A stretch of 64,000 nucleotides of DNA, from positions 1-64,000 of the forward strand of contig JAJPEP010000062.1 of the NCBI GenBank assembly GCA_021166845.1, in the 5' to 3' direction. Positions 5,814-61,733 of the stretch are shown here, in pieces. The translations under genes were made by a program, and so were the position numbers. How positions within the stretch are numbered: position 1 is the first letter of the stretch; each line of letters starts with the position of its first letter. Below the pieces are notes generated by a model. The model was given only the letters and a program-made list of their open reading frames with translations, was not told where the DNA came from and searched no databases. This DNA comes from Thiobacillus sp. (GTDB lineage: Bacteria; Pseudomonadota; Gammaproteobacteria; Burkholderiales; Thiobacillaceae).

Positions 5814-5930
5814 CCAGATTGTTCATTCGATGATTTATGGCGCGTAGGGTGCACTCCGTGCACCTTCAGACGTAAATCGGTGCACAGAGTGCACCCTACG
5901 CAAAGCATCTCGCGTCAATGAAAAATCCGG
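5814..5930 (+). repeat. 117-bp MITE-like palindromic element, copy A
   Basis: Ends are CCAGATTGTTCATT and its imperfect inverse AATGAAAAATCCGG. The middle is a long palindrome with GTAGGGTGCACTCCGTGCAC and its inverse. It aligns without gaps over 117 bases to the reverse complement of 55984-56100 (I count 17 mismatches). It has no coding potential. The flanking 7-mers (TTTCATC, GTTTATG) are not a clear target duplication. Confidence 0.8.
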
Positions 5931-15815: not shown

Positions 15816-15840
15816 GGCCCTGCGCCGATATTCGCACGGC

Positions 15841-15948
15841 GCAGGGTGGACTCCGTGCACCGGTCGACGGTCGAAGGTGCACGGAGTGCACCCTACCAAA
15901 GCCAGGCATCGATTTTCGCCGCGGGCTGTGGGTGTGAATTCCGGTTAG
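15841..15948 (+). repeat. Direct repeat unit 1 with GTGCAC-palindrome core
   Basis: The core AGGGTGGACTCCGTGCACC (15843-15861) is mirrored by GGTGCACGGAGTGCACCCTA (15876-15895). It continues into about 50 bp (CCAGGCATCGATTT ... GAATTCCGGTTA) that is repeated almost identically 149 bp downstream. The core is shared with the 117-bp elements at 5814 and 55984, but the flanks differ. Confidence 0.7.
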
Positions 15949-15989
15949 GCCGATTGAGTCGGCTTTTCTAATCAGGCAATTTGCAGCAC

Positions 15990-16097
15990 GTAGGGTGCAC
16001 TCCGTGCACCGGTCGACGGTCGAAAGTGCACGGAGTGCACCCTACCAAAGCCAGGCATCGATTTCCGCCGCGGGCAGGGGCGAGGAATTCCGGTTAC
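15990..16097 (+). repeat. Direct repeat unit 2 with GTGCAC-palindrome core
   Basis: Second copy, offset by 149 bp from 15841. The core GTAGGGTGCACTCCGTGCAC starts at 15990, with its inverse ending at 16045, followed by the same CCAGGCATCGATTT and GGAATTCCGGTTA flank. With unit 1 it fills the 298-bp gap between the methyltransferase and tatD genes; I see no gene there. Confidence 0.7.
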
Positions 16098-20679: not shown

Positions 20680-21170
20680 TCCTCCTGCTCGAAGATCTTT
20701 TTCAGCGGCGCCTCGTAGCGCTGCCTGATTTCCGCGACCAGCGCGGCGGCGTCGCCGGTGTCGATCGTGTGCACGATCAGCGTGCGCTTGTCCGCGCTCA
20801 GTTTTGCCGACACCGTGCCCGGCGTCAGCGAGATAGTGTTGGCCAGAAGGCTGATGGCGAGATCGGTTTCGAGCGCCAGCGGCACCTCGACGAAAACCGG
20901 GCGCAGCCGCTTGGGCCCCCGCAGAATCAGCCAGGCGACCAGGAAACTGCCGCGCACGATGTCGATGACGAATACGCCGAGGAAGCGCAGCAGGGTCAGC
21001 GGATGGCGGATGCGGATGCGCTCCGGCCAGAAGCTCGACGTGGCGAAGGGAATCAGCCAGCCGAGCAGCGCGCCCAGCACGACATGGCCGGCGGAAAGCT
21101 GGTTGACCAGCAGCAGCCACAGGAGGACGAGCGAGACGGTCAGCAGGGGATGCGGCAGCAAACGTCTCAT
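20676..21170 (-). CDS. mrpE: Mrp Na+/H+ antiporter subunit E
   Basis: 164 residues: N-terminal membrane spans (about 8-45), the family segment FLGVFVIDIVRGSFLVAW, then the cytoplasmic part with LLANTISLTPGTVSAKLS, the most conserved MrpE motif. It overlaps mrpD upstream and mrpF downstream by 4 bases each. In Mrp complexes MrpE lies between the A and D parts and is needed for assembly. Confidence 0.93.
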   Translation of the reverse strand: MRRLLPHPLLTVSLVLLWLLLVNQLSAGHVVLGALLGWLIPFATSSFWPERIRIRHPLTLLRFLGVFVIDIVRGSFLVAWLILRGPKRLRPVFVEVPLALETDLAISLLANTISLTPGTVSAKLSADKRTLIVHTIDTGDAAALVAEIRQRYEAPLKKIFEQEE

Positions 21171-22729
21171 GGCGTGCGTTCCAGGACGGCTTCGATGTAC
21201 TGCTGCGGCTGCAGCAGTTGCGTTGCGGTGGCCTGGGCGTAATCGGACAGCGGCCCGGCCCAGATCGCCAGGCCTGCGACCAGCAGCAGCAGGCCGCCGA
21301 CGGGCGCCAGTGCGGCCACCGACGGCGGCGTCAGCGACGCCGCGTCGTGCGCCCTAAAGGACTCCGATCCACTACGGGCTGAAGCCCGTGTGGAGTCGTA
21401 TGGGCTGTGGGTGCGGTAGAACAGCAGGCTGCCGCTTCGCGCCAGCGCGATCATGCTCAGCAGCCCGGTGACCAGAACGATGCTCCACACCCAGGGCAGC
21501 AGCGGCGAGTCGAGCGCGGCTTTGAGCAGCATGAACTTGCCGAGGAAGCCCGACAGCGGCGGTAGCCCGGCGATGGCCGCGGCGGCGACGAAGAACAGCC
21601 CGCCCAGCACGCGCGCGCCGGGCATCTCGGGGCCGGATTCGAAGCGGTCGGCGAATTCGCCGCGCGCCCGGCCGATCGAATCGGCCAGCAGGAACAGCGC
21701 GGCCGCGGCGAAGACGGAGTGCGGCAGGTAGTACAGGCCGGCGGCGATCGCGTCGCGGCTGCCGAGGCCGAAGGCCAGCAGCAGGCTGCCGATCGAGGCC
21801 ACCACCAGGTAGGCCGCCTGCTGCCGCAGCGCGGTGGCGGCCACCGCGCCGAGCACGCCGAGCGTGAGCGTCGCGAGCGCCAGCGGCGCCAGCCAGGGAT
21901 CGAGCAGATTGGCGACCGGCCCGGCGTCGTCGCCGAACATCAGCGTGTAGACGCGCAGGATGCTGTAGGCGCCGACCTTGGTCATGATGGCGAACAGCGC
22001 CGCCACCGGCGCGCTGGTGTGGGCGTAGGCCGCGGGCAGCCACAGATACAGCGGCAGCAGCGCGGCCTTCAGCGCGAACACGGCGAACAGCAGCAGGCCG
22101 GCGGACTGCACCAGCGCCAGGTTGTCCGGCGGCGTCGCCGCGAGCTTCACCGCGAGGTCGGCCATGTTGAGCGTGCCGGTGACGCCGTACAGGGTGCCGA
22201 CGGCGAACAGGAACAGGGTCGAGCCGACCAGGTTGATGACGACGTAATGCAGCCCCGCCTTGACCCGTTTCCGGCCGCCGCCGTGCAGCAGCAGGCCGTA
22301 GGAGGCGAGCAGCAGGATCTCGAAGAAGACGAACAGGTTGAACAGGTCGCCGGTGAGGAAGGCGCCGTTGAGGCCGAACAGCTGCAGCTGGAACAGCACG
22401 TGGAAGTGGCGGCCCTCGGCATCGCTGCCGCGGATCGCGACCAGCAGTGCGAACACCGCCAGCAGAGCAGTCGTCAGCAGCATCCACGCCGCCAGCCGGT
22501 CGACCAGCAGCACGATGCCATAGGGCGCGGCCCAGTTGCCGAGCTGGTAGACAAGCTGGGTGCCGTCGCTGGCCGTTTGCACCAGCGCGATCGCCAGCGG
22601 AATCAGCGCCAGCGTGGCGACGAGGCTGACGCCGCGCTGCAGGCGGTCTTGGCGCAGCATCAGCAGCGTGATGCCGGCGATGAGCGGCAGCACCACCGGC
22701 AGGATGGGCAGATGGGCGAAGCCGTTCAT
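21167..22729 (-). CDS. mrpD: Mrp Na+/H+ antiporter subunit D, carrying an in-frame repeat insertion
   Basis: 520 residues from the ATG at 22729, with 14 or so membrane spans of the NuoM/N antiporter type. The transmembrane glutamate is kept (LFVFFEILLLASY, about residue 140), as are the lysines in FALKAALLPLYLWLP and IMTKVGAYSILR and in SGFLGKFMLLKAAL. Residues 444-460 read YDSTRASARSGSESFRA, encoded by a palindromic element (21350-21402) that I judge to be an insertion in a loop near the C-terminus. It overlaps mrpC and mrpE by 4 bases each. Confidence 0.93.
   Translation of the reverse strand: MNGFAHLPILPVVLPLIAGITLLMLRQDRLQRGVSLVATLALIPLAIALVQTASDGTQLVYQLGNWAAPYGIVLLVDRLAAWMLLTTALLAVFALLVAIRGSDAEGRHFHVLFQLQLFGLNGAFLTGDLFNLFVFFEILLLASYGLLLHGGGRKRVKAGLHYVVINLVGSTLFLFAVGTLYGVTGTLNMADLAVKLAATPPDNLALVQSAGLLLFAVFALKAALLPLYLWLPAAYAHTSAPVAALFAIMTKVGAYSILRVYTLMFGDDAGPVANLLDPWLAPLALATLTLGVLGAVAATALRQQAAYLVVASIGSLLLAFGLGSRDAIAAGLYYLPHSVFAAAALFLLADSIGRARGEFADRFESGPEMPGARVLGGLFFVAAAAIAGLPPLSGFLGKFMLLKAALDSPLLPWVWSIVLVTGLLSMIALARSGSLLFYRTHSPYDSTRASARSGSESFRAHDAASLTPPSVAALAPVGGLLLLVAGLAIWAGPLSDYAQATATQLLQPQQYIEAVLERTP
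21350..21402 (-). repeat. In-frame palindromic element inside mrpD
   Basis: On the minus strand the element runs CATACGACTCC ... CACGGGCTTCAGCCCGTAGT ... GGAGTCCTTTAGGGCG. Its ends GACTCC/GGAGTC and centre ACGGGCT/AGCCCGT pair as an imperfect hairpin. It matches 60763-60812 in yhdP at about 44 of 51 aligned bases plus one 3-base gap, and is read in the same frame in both genes. Confidence 0.8.
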
Positions 22730-55983: not shown

Positions 55984-56100
55984 CCAGATTGTTCATTAGG
56001 GCGAGATGCTTTGCGTAGGGTGCACTCCGTGCACCGATTGACACCCGAAGGCGCACGGAATGCATCCTACGCGTCATAAATCGTCTAATGAACAATCCGG
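55984..56100 (-). repeat. 117-bp MITE-like palindromic element, copy B, with 7-bp flanking duplication
   Basis: Terminal inverted repeats CCAGATTGTTCATTA (55984-55998) and TAATGAACAATCCGG (56086-56100) match at 14 of 15 positions. The element is flanked on both sides by GTTCAAT (55977-55983 and 56101-56107), a likely target-site duplication. It is in the opposite orientation to copy A at 5814. It fills most of the 232-bp gap between acs and the eRF1-like gene. Confidence 0.85.
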
Positions 56101-57908: not shown

Positions 57909-60900
57909 ATGACTGTTTTTTCATCGCTTTCCGTGTTCCTGCGCCGCGCATCGCGCTGGCTGGCCGCCCTGGCCGCGCTGGCCGCACTGGGCTTTGCGAC
58001 CGCGGCGGCGCTGGTGTTCTTCTGGGTGTTGCCGAATATCGCCGATCACCGCGACACGGTGGAGGAGTTGATGTCGCGCGCGCTGGGCCAGCGGGTGACG
58101 CTGGAGGCGGTGTCGGGGGTGTGGCGGCAGGCGCGCCCCGAATTCCGCCTGCGGGGTGTGCGCCTGTACGACCGGCAGGGCCGCCCGGCGCTTTACCTGC
58201 CCGAACTGGAGGCCGCTATTGCCTGGCGTTCGCTGCTGGTTCTGGAGCCGCGCTTCAACCGCATCGAGTTGCAACGACTGACGCTCGGGGTGCGGCGCGC
58301 GCGCGACGGCCATTTCTACGTCGGCGGCATTCCCATCAATCCGGCCGATCCCGACAGCGGTTTTTCCAGCTGGCTGCTGCGGCAGGGGCGGGTGCACGTC
58401 GGCCATGCCACGCTCACCTGGCTGGACGAGGTGCGCAACGCGCCGCCGCTGATTTTCACCGCGGTCGATTTCACCCTGACCAATGCGCGCCGCACCCACC
58501 GCCTGCAACTGCATGCCGTTCCGCCGGCCAGCCTGGCCCGGCCGCTGACGGTCGACGCGAAACTGAGCGCACGCGATGCGGACGACCTCAAGACCTGGAA
58601 CGGCACCCTCGACGCCAGCACGGCGGCGCTGTCGTTTCCGCATCTGGGCGCCTGGCTGGCCCTGCCGTATCAGCCCCGGCAAGGCGGCGGCGCGCTGAAG
58701 CTGAAATTCGAGGTGGTGCGCGGCGCGCTGGGCGGAGTGGCCGCGGAACTGGACCTGCGCGCGATCGAAACATCCCTGGGGGACGGCCTGCCCGCGCTGA
58801 AGCTGGACGAGGTGCAAGGCCGGGCCGTGTGGCAGCGGGGTTCGGACGGTCAGCGCGTGGCGCTTGAAAACCTGCGCGTGGCGCGGCGGGGCGCCGCCCT
58901 CGGGGCGCCGTTCAGCGCGAGCCTGGCCTGGAACGCCGCGTCACATGAAATCACGGCGCAGTCCCTCAGCCTGAGCGGCTGGCAATCGATATTGCCGAGC
59001 CTGCCGATGGATGCGGCGCTGCGCGTGCGCTTGCATGCCCTGCAACCGCAAGGGCGGCTCGACGGCTTGCGCTTGCACTGGCGCGGCGCGCAGCCCGGGC
59101 TGGACAACTTCAGTATTGCGACCCGCTTCAGCGGCCTCGGCGTGACGGCGGCCGGCAGCCAGCCCGGGCTGTCCAATCTCAGCGGGCGCATCGAGGGGGA
59201 CGCGGCTGCGGGCGTGTTCGAAATAGACTCGAAACAGCTGAGCCTCAGCCTGCCCGGCCTGTTCCGTGAACCGTCGTTCGGATTCGACAGCGTGCATGCG
59301 CGCGGCAGCTGGAAGAAGACGCCACGCGGCCGCCGCCTGACCCTGGACGAAATGGCGTTCGCCAATCGGGATATGGCCGGGTCGGCCAAGGGGCGCTACG
59401 AGCTGATCACAGGCCAGCCCGGCGTGATCGACCTGAGCGCGCATCTGAGCCGCGCCGAGGGCACCGCGGTGTATCGTTACTTCCCGAAAAAAATCGGCGA
59501 CCAAACGGTCGACTGGGTGAGACGGGCCGTCGTGGCCGGGCGCTCCGACAATGTGCGGCTGGACCTCAAAGGCGACCTGTCGCAGTTCCCGTTCGAGCAG
59601 GGCAACGGCGTGTTTCGCGTCGATGCGCAGGCCAGGGATGCGGTGATCGACTATGTGCCGGGCTGGCCGCGGATCGAGGGCATCCAGGGGCGCGTGCTGT
59701 TCCAGGGCAAGACGATGGAGGTGACCTCAAGCCAGGCACGGATCTACGGGGTGGCGCTGGCGCCGGTGAGGGCCGTCATTCCGGACCTGATCCATCACGA
59801 GGAGCAGCTGCATATCGACGGCGAGGCCAACGGGCCCATCCAGGATTTCATCCGCTTTGCCAACTCCAGCCCGGTTGGCGACAAGCTGCGGGGGTTCACC
59901 CGCGACGTGGATGGCAGCGGCCCGATGAAACTTGCCCTGAAACTGATGATTCCGCTGCGCCACAACCACGACACCACGCTGGCCGGCCGGCTGTCGTTTC
60001 TGGGCGACACCCTGCGGCCGGCAGGACTGCCGCAGCTCGACCTGGTGCGCGGCGACATCGATTTCACCGATGACAGCCTGAATGCGAGAAACCTCGGTGC
60101 GCAGTTTCTCGGCGGTCCGCTGCGCATCGACACGGCCACCCGCGATGGCCAGGTGCAGATTCTGGCGCAGGGGCGCGCCGCCGCTGCGGGCATATCGCCC
60201 TGGCTCGGCGCGGAATGGGGCCAGCACTTGTCGGGGCAGGCCGCATGGCGCGGCCGGATCGATCTGGAGCCCGCGGGCGAGCGTGTCCGGATCGAATCCG
60301 ACCTCGTCGGACTGGCGTCCGGCCTGCCCGTGCCGCTGGCCAAGGCCGCCGCGCAGCCGCTGCCGCTGCGGGTGATCCGCCAGCCGCAGGGCGACGGCCT
60401 GCTGAATGAAGTGCGGCTGGGCCAAATCGTCAGCGCCGTGTGGCGCAGCACCGCGGCAGGCGGTTTCGGCCGCGGCGAAATCCGCTTTGGCGGGGACGCG
60501 CAAATGCCGGCCGAGCCCGGCCTGCGTCTGGCCGGCAACGGGCGCGGCATGGATATTTCGGGCTGGGCGGCGCTGCTGCCCGAGGGCAACGGCAAGCCGG
60601 CCTTGCCGCTTTCAGCCATCGATGTCCGCTTCGATACGCTCGACCTGATGGGGCGGCGCTATCAGGCGGTGCGCCTGCAGGGGCGCACCCGCAACGGCCT
60701 GTTGCGCACCCAGGTGAGCGGGCGCGAACTGGACGGCGTGCTGACCTATCGCCCGGCCGGGGCATACGATTCCACAGGGGCTTCCGCCGGTGGTGGATCG
60801 GTCTTTAGGGAGCAGCCCGCCCGCGTGTCGGCGCAGTTCAGGCAGCTGACCATTCCGGCCGCGGCGTCCGCAACCGGTCAGGCGGCGGGCATGAGCATGA

Positions 60901-61733
60901 CGGCCGCGGATTTTCCGAGCCTGGACATGACGGTGGAAGACTTCCGTCTGGAGGAACGGCCGCTCGGGCGACTGGAGGTGGTGGCGCACGGCGCGCCGCA
61001 GGGGCTGGTGATCGATAGCCTGCGGCTCACGCACCCGGACAGCGTGTTCCGCATGAGCGGCCTGTGGCGCGCCGGCGCGCCGAGCGAAACCCATGCCGAA
61101 CTGAGTCTGAACGTGCTGGACGCCGGCAAGTTTCTGGACCGCTTCGGTTATGCCGATACGCTGCGGCGCGGCAGCGCGGACATCCAGGGCAATGCCAGCT
61201 GGACCGGTTCGCCCGCCGATTTCGCGTTCGACACCCTGGCGGGGCAGCTCGACTTCAAGGCCCGCGGGGGGCAGTTTCTCAAGATCAACCCCGGCGCCGG
61301 AAAGCTGCTCGGCGTGCTGAGCCTGCAATCGCTGCCGCGCCGGCTGAGCTTCGATTTCCGTGATATCTTCAATCAAGGCTATGCCTTCGACGATATCGGC
61401 GCCACCCTGCGCATCGCGCGCGGCGTGGTCTACAGCGATGATTTCAGGATGCGTGGGCCGGCCGCCAAGGTCAATATGTCCGGACTGGCCGACCTCAATC
61501 AGGAATCCGTGCAGCTGCGGGTGAAAGTGATCCCCAAATTGTCCGAAGGCCTGGCCGTGGCGGGCGCTCTGATCGGCGGGCCATTGGCCGGGGTGGGTGC
61601 GCTGGCCGCGCAAAAACTGCTGCGTGACCCGTTTGAGGAAGCCATCAGCCAGGAATACATGGTGACCGGGGCGTGGCAGGAACCCGATGTGAAAAAGTTG
61701 GCTCGGGCCAAAACTGGAACCTCTGAACCTTGA
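57909..61733 (+). CDS. yhdP: YhdP-family AsmA-like envelope protein, carrying an in-frame repeat insertion
   Basis: 1274 residues, the usual YhdP/TIGR02099 length. One N-terminal membrane anchor (about 15-38) is followed by a very long periplasmic beta-rich groove domain and the conserved C-terminus (YSDDFRMRGPAAKVNMSGLADL ... VKVIPKLSEGLAVAGALIGGPLAGVGALAAQKLL). YhdP, TamB and YdbH are AsmA-like proteins that carry phospholipids from the inner to the outer membrane in E. coli. Residues 953-968 (YDSTGASAGGGSVFRE) are encoded by a copy of the element also found in mrpD. First gene of a yhdP-nitrilase-tldD unit. Confidence 0.93.
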   Translation: MTVFSSLSVFLRRASRWLAALAALAALGFATAAALVFFWVLPNIADHRDTVEELMSRALGQRVTLEAVSGVWRQARPEFRLRGVRLYDRQGRPALYLPELEAAIAWRSLLVLEPRFNRIELQRLTLGVRRARDGHFYVGGIPINPADPDSGFSSWLLRQGRVHVGHATLTWLDEVRNAPPLIFTAVDFTLTNARRTHRLQLHAVPPASLARPLTVDAKLSARDADDLKTWNGTLDASTAALSFPHLGAWLALPYQPRQGGGALKLKFEVVRGALGGVAAELDLRAIETSLGDGLPALKLDEVQGRAVWQRGSDGQRVALENLRVARRGAALGAPFSASLAWNAASHEITAQSLSLSGWQSILPSLPMDAALRVRLHALQPQGRLDGLRLHWRGAQPGLDNFSIATRFSGLGVTAAGSQPGLSNLSGRIEGDAAAGVFEIDSKQLSLSLPGLFREPSFGFDSVHARGSWKKTPRGRRLTLDEMAFANRDMAGSAKGRYELITGQPGVIDLSAHLSRAEGTAVYRYFPKKIGDQTVDWVRRAVVAGRSDNVRLDLKGDLSQFPFEQGNGVFRVDAQARDAVIDYVPGWPRIEGIQGRVLFQGKTMEVTSSQARIYGVALAPVRAVIPDLIHHEEQLHIDGEANGPIQDFIRFANSSPVGDKLRGFTRDVDGSGPMKLALKLMIPLRHNHDTTLAGRLSFLGDTLRPAGLPQLDLVRGDIDFTDDSLNARNLGAQFLGGPLRIDTATRDGQVQILAQGRAAAAGISPWLGAEWGQHLSGQAAWRGRIDLEPAGERVRIESDLVGLASGLPVPLAKAAAQPLPLRVIRQPQGDGLLNEVRLGQIVSAVWRSTAAGGFGRGEIRFGGDAQMPAEPGLRLAGNGRGMDISGWAALLPEGNGKPALPLSAIDVRFDTLDLMGRRYQAVRLQGRTRNGLLRTQVSGRELDGVLTYRPAGAYDSTGASAGGGSVFREQPARVSAQFRQLTIPAAASATGQAAGMSMTAADFPSLDMTVEDFRLEERPLGRLEVVAHGAPQGLVIDSLRLTHPDSVFRMSGLWRAGAPSETHAELSLNVLDAGKFLDRFGYADTLRRGSADIQGNASWTGSPADFAFDTLAGQLDFKARGGQFLKINPGAGKLLGVLSLQSLPRRLSFDFRDIFNQGYAFDDIGATLRIARGVVYSDDFRMRGPAAKVNMSGLADLNQESVQLRVKVIPKLSEGLAVAGALIGGPLAGVGALAAQKLLRDPFEEAISQEYMVTGAWQEPDVKKLARAKTGTSEP
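60763..60812 (+). repeat. In-frame palindromic element inside yhdP
   Basis: CATACGATTCCACAGGGGCT, then TCCGCCGGTGGTGGATCGG and TCTTTAGGGAGC. It aligns to the mrpD element (minus strand of 21350-21402) with about seven substitutions and one missing codon (AGT in mrpD). The palindrome is decayed compared with the mrpD copy, suggesting an older insertion. Confidence 0.78.

Follow-up and report, generated by a model that had tools for sequence, protein, structure and literature searches.

A dispersed 51-bp palindromic element inserted in frame into protein-coding genes of Thiobacillus

A palindromic insert in mrpD and a related copy in yhdP

The window, i.e. the whole 64-kb stretch of DNA that was analysed, carries on its minus strand the gene mrpD (positions 21167 to 22729) for subunit D of a monovalent cation/H+ antiporter, as assigned by NCBIfam NF009309 above its cut-off, Pfam Proton_antipo_M, the PDB chains 7qru_D and 6z16_D, and the start and length of the gene. 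A palindromic element of 51 bp (CATACGACTCC...CCTTTAGGG) lies in frame inside this gene, at positions 21352 to 21402, where the minus strand reads CATACGACTCCACACGGGCTTCAGCCCGTAGTGGATCGGAGTCCTTTAGGG. The element codes for YDSTRASARSGSESFRA, residues 444-460 of MrpD when counted from the start at 22729, and its boundaries were set from orthologues without the insert. An imperfect palindrome over these residues had been described in a first-pass annotation of the window, and its sequence was as claimed, the exact insert being these 51 bp. When MrpD was aligned to 7qru_D, the 17-residue block fell within a hydrophilic stretch flanked by hydrophobic segments, which fits the putative loop between membrane segments that had been proposed at first reading.

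The related copy announced for yhdP, in the same orientation and reading frame, was also found, as a 48-bp sequence (YDSTGASAGGGSVFR) on the plus strand at positions 60763 to 60810. Its host is a yhdP-like gene (57909 to 61733, plus strand; frame open from 57882, first ATG at 57909), the part of which contained in locus L035 matched Pfam YhdP with E = 2.8e-196. Compared to the mrpD copy, that in yhdP shows a net loss of three bases, with 46 of 55 positions identical (E = 2e-9, search inside the window). A third copy is located on the same contig in reverse orientation, 5.7 kb beyond the end of the window (G000:C86:69726-69776; loci L289 and L015), where it lies between the GGDEF and EAL domains of one protein. 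A different palindromic repeat, roughly 57 bp long and with the core GTAGGGTGCACTCCGTGCACC, occurs four times in the window (5843-5899, 15840-15896, 15989-16045 and 56014-56070) and looks like a GTAG-type REP.

Hairpin structure and distribution of the element

The 242 matches detected among the loci corresponded to 204 non-redundant copies, 163 of which were nearly full-length; 138 of the latter had exactly 51 bp and the longest reached 78 bp. The element begins with CATACG and ends with TTTAGGG, and a subfamily with the end CCCCTTGTGGGG instead has 54 bp by hand count. In 75 distinct 51-mers, columns 5-19 pair with columns 24-38, leaving T9 and A30 unpaired, and a small CC-TTTA-GG hairpin follows 3' of the main stem. 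This stem is conserved through compensatory change: in 41 copies, seven pairs varied on both sides, a number reached by 5 of 500 shuffles, the cells changed on both sides amounted to 48 vs. 14.8 in the shuffles, and the covariation score was reached by none of the 500. By inspection, the element has no terminal inverted repeats, but merely a subterminal GACTCC/GGAGTC; GTAG is absent from both ends and occurs only in the stem region (columns 28-31), and neither strand of the consensus contains CGTC. Head-to-tail copies are common, as in 39 of the 204 the start of the next copy lies at most 12 bases downstream. Two 34-nt hairpins resemble the stem of the element without its ends (G000:C94:15863-15896 and G103:C12:14338-14371), the second of them inside a long open frame.

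Further copies in the genome had been anticipated at first reading, and they proved to be many. BLAST returned 24 matches to the stretch from the window, 19 of them with E < 1e-4, and a covariance model based on 41 copies detected 22 at E <= 0.001, the two lists overlapping without being identical. Among the eight genomes searched with this model, G103 contained 23 copies, G078 four and G058 one, and none was detected in G053, G065, G068 and G093. By BLAST (E <= 1e-6), 46 of the 117 family genomes contained the element, all but one of them from the genus (45 of its 56); the figure of 45 out of 56 is a lower bound, as BLAST missed G058 and G078, both positive with the covariance model. The element is thus a dispersed family, and it extends further, since 16 of 399 genomes of the order gave matches, spread over four families (that of the genus and three more). 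Of 369 genomes of the class only that under study matched, in a sample that is thin given the 16 in 399 within the order.

A scan of named records revealed at least 114 stretches with the element, 80 of which were listed by name. Among those listed, 51 were Thiobacillus, Sulfuricella or Hydrogenophilales records and the remaining labels were broader or different (Gammaproteobacteria, Proteobacteria/Pseudomonadota, Lysobacteraceae, Sulfuriferula); eight of the 80 came from Thiobacillus denitrificans RG, a record not labelled as a MAG. In one MAG labelled Lysobacteraceae (L080, L084, L095, L120 and L138), copies and tandem arrays were located near the ends of the stretches, which possibly are the points where the assembly broke in longer arrays, and the label itself may be a binning error. 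No match was found in phages, plasmids or viral contigs, the latter searched with an exact 21-base pattern. Rfam covariance models gave no match at the element in ten loci (E <= 0.1), all seven matches obtained lying elsewhere in L074.

Filled and empty sites, and the putative mobilisation of the element

The suspicion that MrpD orthologues might lack the block was borne out, as 27 of 30 sequences of the genus were without the element. The 51-bp insert was present in two, from the genome under study and from G103, and a diverged copy in G059. In the mrpD genes of G054, G067 and G079, exactly these 51 bp are missing, next to left flanks that are 97% identical; four of the 27 element-less genes (L196, L198, L200 and L206) have other extra bases nearby. 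The diverged copy of G059 (L202) occupies exactly the site of the window's mrpD in a distant clade, and its sister L198 (G069) shows an enlarged stretch. Similarly, uvrD of G103, G054 and others lacks exactly the 51 bp of the insert, with left flanks in the empty orthologues of MrpD and UvrD identical at 97-99%. Three of the 29 uvrD loci readable at the site were filled and 26 were without the element, which was also found in L129 (a named MAG) and L058 (G067); L271 has another short extra stretch. Loci L058 and L279 were not usable for the UvrD tree and its site readout and were left out of both, L279 being unreadable in the alignment. In YhdP, 14 of 30 sequences were filled and 16 were cleanly empty. 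Presence and absence therefore differ by exactly 51 bp in MrpD and UvrD, and empty sites exist in all three genes.

No target-site duplication was detected at the three sites examined (MrpD, UvrD and YhdP). The 105 non-tandem full-length copies represented 42 distinct sites, with G immediately preceding the insert at 40 of them and C immediately following it at 27. A rule by which the target would be a hairpin loop was considered and not found convincing, as the mean best stem was 4.36 at the 42 junctions vs. 4.07 at shifted controls. Eighteen of the 105 non-tandem copies (in L096, L113, L153, L007 and others) are nested at a single position, GG|CAATCCAG, in what looks like another interspersed repeat.

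We consider the element to be a short non-autonomous mobile hairpin of 51 bp, or 54 bp in the subfamily, that is read as extra residues when it lies in a stop-free frame, and we assign to this reading a probability of about 0.9. According to it, the hairpin would insert as one unit, without target-site duplication and usually between G and C, moved by some enzyme supplied in trans. Upon landing in a gene in a stop-free frame, the ribosome would read 17 or 18 extra residues, and inserts in loops, linkers and tails would be tolerated and could persist.

A narrower form of this reading, which we regard as possible though rather unlikely, is that the element belongs to the REP type and owes its movement to a Y1 (RAYT) transposase similar to those of IS200/IS605, which would act on hairpins in single-stranded DNA. 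The irregular hairpin with its conserved unpaired T9 and A30, the lack of target duplication at MrpD and UvrD and the nearly fixed base at the left junction agree with it, as does the presence of Y1_Tnp genes in 38 of the 56 genomes of the genus (E <= 1e-5). However, the terminal GTAG tag is missing, and of the 37 Y1 loci detected in eight genomes, the 30 whose flanks were retrieved had no element there. Neither was there any co-occurrence, as the element was detected by BLAST in 15 of 18 genomes without Y1 vs. 30 of 38 with it (Fisher p = 1.0; many of these genomes are drafts), and four carriers (G075, G082, G090 and G106) yielded no Y1 candidate, however weak. Given the lack of co-occurrence with Y1 genes and of copies in the flanks retrieved, the element seems at present not to depend on a Y1 enzyme encoded in the same genome.

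The history of the three sites was followed in single FastTree runs without support values. Filled alleles of UvrD appear in two separate clades; in the MrpD tree, the genome under study and G103 are not sisters and the diverged copy of G059 is far off; and filled and empty alleles of YhdP alternate over the tree. All 14 filled YhdP rows have the element at the same site and in the same frame, and in each of them stem position 15 is a G, so that it no longer pairs with position 28; this G was found in 5 of the 75 distinct copies and a G-G pair at that place in 2 of the 75. Because site, frame and this rare G are shared, the filled YhdP alleles likely stem from one old insertion. The patchy pattern in the three genes could be explained by re-insertion at one nucleotide, by precise loss or by exchange of short tracts. 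The case of G081, which is empty at the YhdP site beside filled relatives and differs from them in the codons adjoining it, hints at allele exchange. A more tentative idea, to which we give about as little weight as to the Y1 transposase, is that the element may enter and leave fixed gene sites precisely by means of an undescribed enzyme, so that species would repeatedly gain and lose a 17-residue loop in UvrD, MrpD and YhdP. This is put forward because separate clades of UvrD and, if the diverged copy is counted, of MrpD are filled at an identical nucleotide, and because the filled YhdP rows share a stem variant yet are scattered, with clean empty sites between them.

The first-pass annotation had likened the element to the Rickettsia palindromic elements (RPE) and had taken such a family to be undescribed for organisms of this kind. 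The likeness stands as regards in-frame inserts in unrelated genes, but not as regards one single peptide, since several frames and both orientations are used. With respect to novelty, the kind was already described, also outside Rickettsia, in the available text of two papers (PMC3733652, PMC2229807), but no description of this particular family was found in a literature search that covered few subscription journals, and the word Thiobacillus is absent from the main text of PMC3733652. According to the available text of PMC2229807, RPEs are specific to Rickettsia, have 105-146 bp and form in-frame fusions with 19 reading frames of Rickettsia, and one RPE-containing product, Gmk, was shown to be active. 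The available text of PMC3733652 reports GTAG- and CGTC-tagged REPs inside ORFs of O. terrae, Thauera, R. conorii, Xanthomonas and others, prominently in DNA-repair genes such as those for UvrD and RecB, and includes RPE-4 and RPE-6 among the CGTC-tagged families.

Like the RPEs, the element is a dispersed palindrome in and between genes that encodes an extra segment in frame in unrelated proteins (available text of PMC2229807); judged by the RPE descriptions there, it is set apart by its 51 or 54 bp and by its lineage, and it lacks the CGTC that marks the families of RPE-4 and RPE-6 (PMC3733652). With the tagged REPs it shares the small hairpin, the arrays and the occurrence of some copies in ORFs, including UvrD and RecB in the available text of PMC3733652, whereas those REPs have 20-40 bp against 51 bp here, the element has no terminal GTAG or CGTC tag, and the loci that were examined showed no linked Y1 gene. 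Bacterial MITEs with ORFs (ERIC/RU-1, YPAL and the Correia 107-bp element) are also non-autonomous, with some in-frame fusions as far as the available text of PMC2229807 describes them, in contrast to which our element lacks terminal inverted repeats, shows no duplicated target in MrpD, UvrD or YhdP, and is at most half as long as a MITE. Because in-frame palindromes are known elsewhere, yet the element departs from the tagged REPs and from MITEs in features that were tested, it is filed as a new family that works like the RPEs and the in-frame REPs.

Host genes, reading frames and tolerance of the insert

Of the 22 copies in the genome under study, 13 are flanked on both sides by coding sequence in one and the same frame, one extends a C-terminus, six look intergenic and two are uncertain. 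Their hosts, as assigned with Pfam and NCBIfam, include a UvrD-like protein (with two inserts), HolA, HypF, FlgJ, an AddA-like helicase, an HI0933-like flavoprotein, a UbiH-like hydroxylase, and GGDEF-EAL, CYTH-CHAD and PIN-domain proteins, in addition to MrpD and YhdP; the host with the C-terminal extension (L019) is presumably a D-Ala-D-Ala carboxypeptidase. In other genomes, P-type ATPases, an ABC-F ATPase, YicC, PFOR and a NuoG-like protein were found among the hosts, and T. denitrificans RG has the insert in a histidine-kinase-like ATPase (L133). Each of 25 host proteins scanned with Pfam matched a known family, and several NCBIfam equivalogs, including uvrD, scored below cut-off, partly because the ORFs were cut by the ends of the loci.

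A coding test of the flanks, based on an open frame and codon usage, was passed by 41 of the 204 copies, at 26 distinct sites, although some of these calls may be chance ORFs (e.g. L115 and L107). This criterion superseded an earlier strict filter on codon usage, which gave just eight coding copies. The element was read on both strands and in several frames, and it was stop-free in the frame of the host at all 26 coding sites vs. 15.0 expected for random frames (product probability 2.6e-7); the calls disregard stops inside the element, but require the frame to continue through it, so copies that shift the frame cannot appear among them.

The filled YhdP genes allowed a closer comparison. Their copies change in length by multiples of three, and in 12 of the 14 the changes at codon positions 1/2/3 numbered 21/6/29, against 70/68/110 in the same register of 61 distinct copies without a coding call. 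By Fisher tests the difference was significant for position 2 (p = 0.009) and not for position 3 (p = 0.37), both values being nominal as the rows are related. Together with the multiples of three, this pattern favours translation rather than bypass. In the alignment to the structure of E. coli UvrD (2is1), the gap opposite the insert is exactly 17 residues long and precedes the conserved LEEERRL stretch by a short distance. We infer that the ribosome reads the insert and that the host protein tolerates it, rather than making use of it.

That the insert is kept because the hairpin or the peptide is useful to the host gene appears improbable. In YhdP, the mean pairwise identity of the element exceeded that of its flanks (0.830 vs. 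0.752; at third positions 0.749 vs. 0.567) and just 25 of 805 equally long windows of the gene were as conserved at third positions, and the insert is widely retained, in 14 of the 30 sequences. However, 102 of the 805 windows were equally conserved when all positions were counted, so the excess is modest, and twelve of the YhdP copies have lost between 1 and 5 of the 14 stem pairs. Moreover, 16 of 30 YhdP, 27 of 30 MrpD and 26 of 29 readable UvrD genes do without the element. The strong conservation above flanks seen in other genes was set aside as biased, as many of those loci had been fetched by likeness to the element; the YhdP set, fetched by protein, is the sole fair one for this comparison.

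Even less probable is that the ribosome skips the element and makes no extra residues, as with the mitochondrial byps, which are bypass elements. A hairpin inside genes recalls them, but a skipped element would need neither a stop-free host frame, found at 26 of 26 coding sites, nor the preserved frame and rarely changed second codon positions of the YhdP copies. Finally, a block native to MrpD or an artefact of the draft assembly (115 contigs) is excluded for practical purposes by the copies in unrelated genes and the clean empty sites in MrpD, UvrD and YhdP, and also by the occurrence of the element in the record of strain RG and in 46 genomes belonging to the family.

Returning to the reading of a mobile hairpin that becomes translated, the element would provide a further, well-sampled case of selfish palindromes absorbed by proteins as new segments, and this in a high-GC group of bacteria for which many species have been sequenced. 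The spread of a hairpin, apparently read as a 17-residue loop, through genomes of sulfur-oxidising bacteria would be an unusual route to such segments. As close relatives carry filled and empty alleles, the effect of the 17-residue insert on UvrD, HolA or the antiporter can be measured. The decay of inserts into ordinary linkers may also be traced, for example at residues 428-444 of the UvrD ORF of L011, where a second stretch in a linker of variable length matches the element at the DNA level (27.2 bits) and is probably an old insert becoming ordinary protein. In one MAG, three tandem in-frame copies within an ORF for a protein that has the auxiliary lipoprotein domain of ABC transporters (L109:6403-7545, minus strand) give three near-identical 17-residue repeats.
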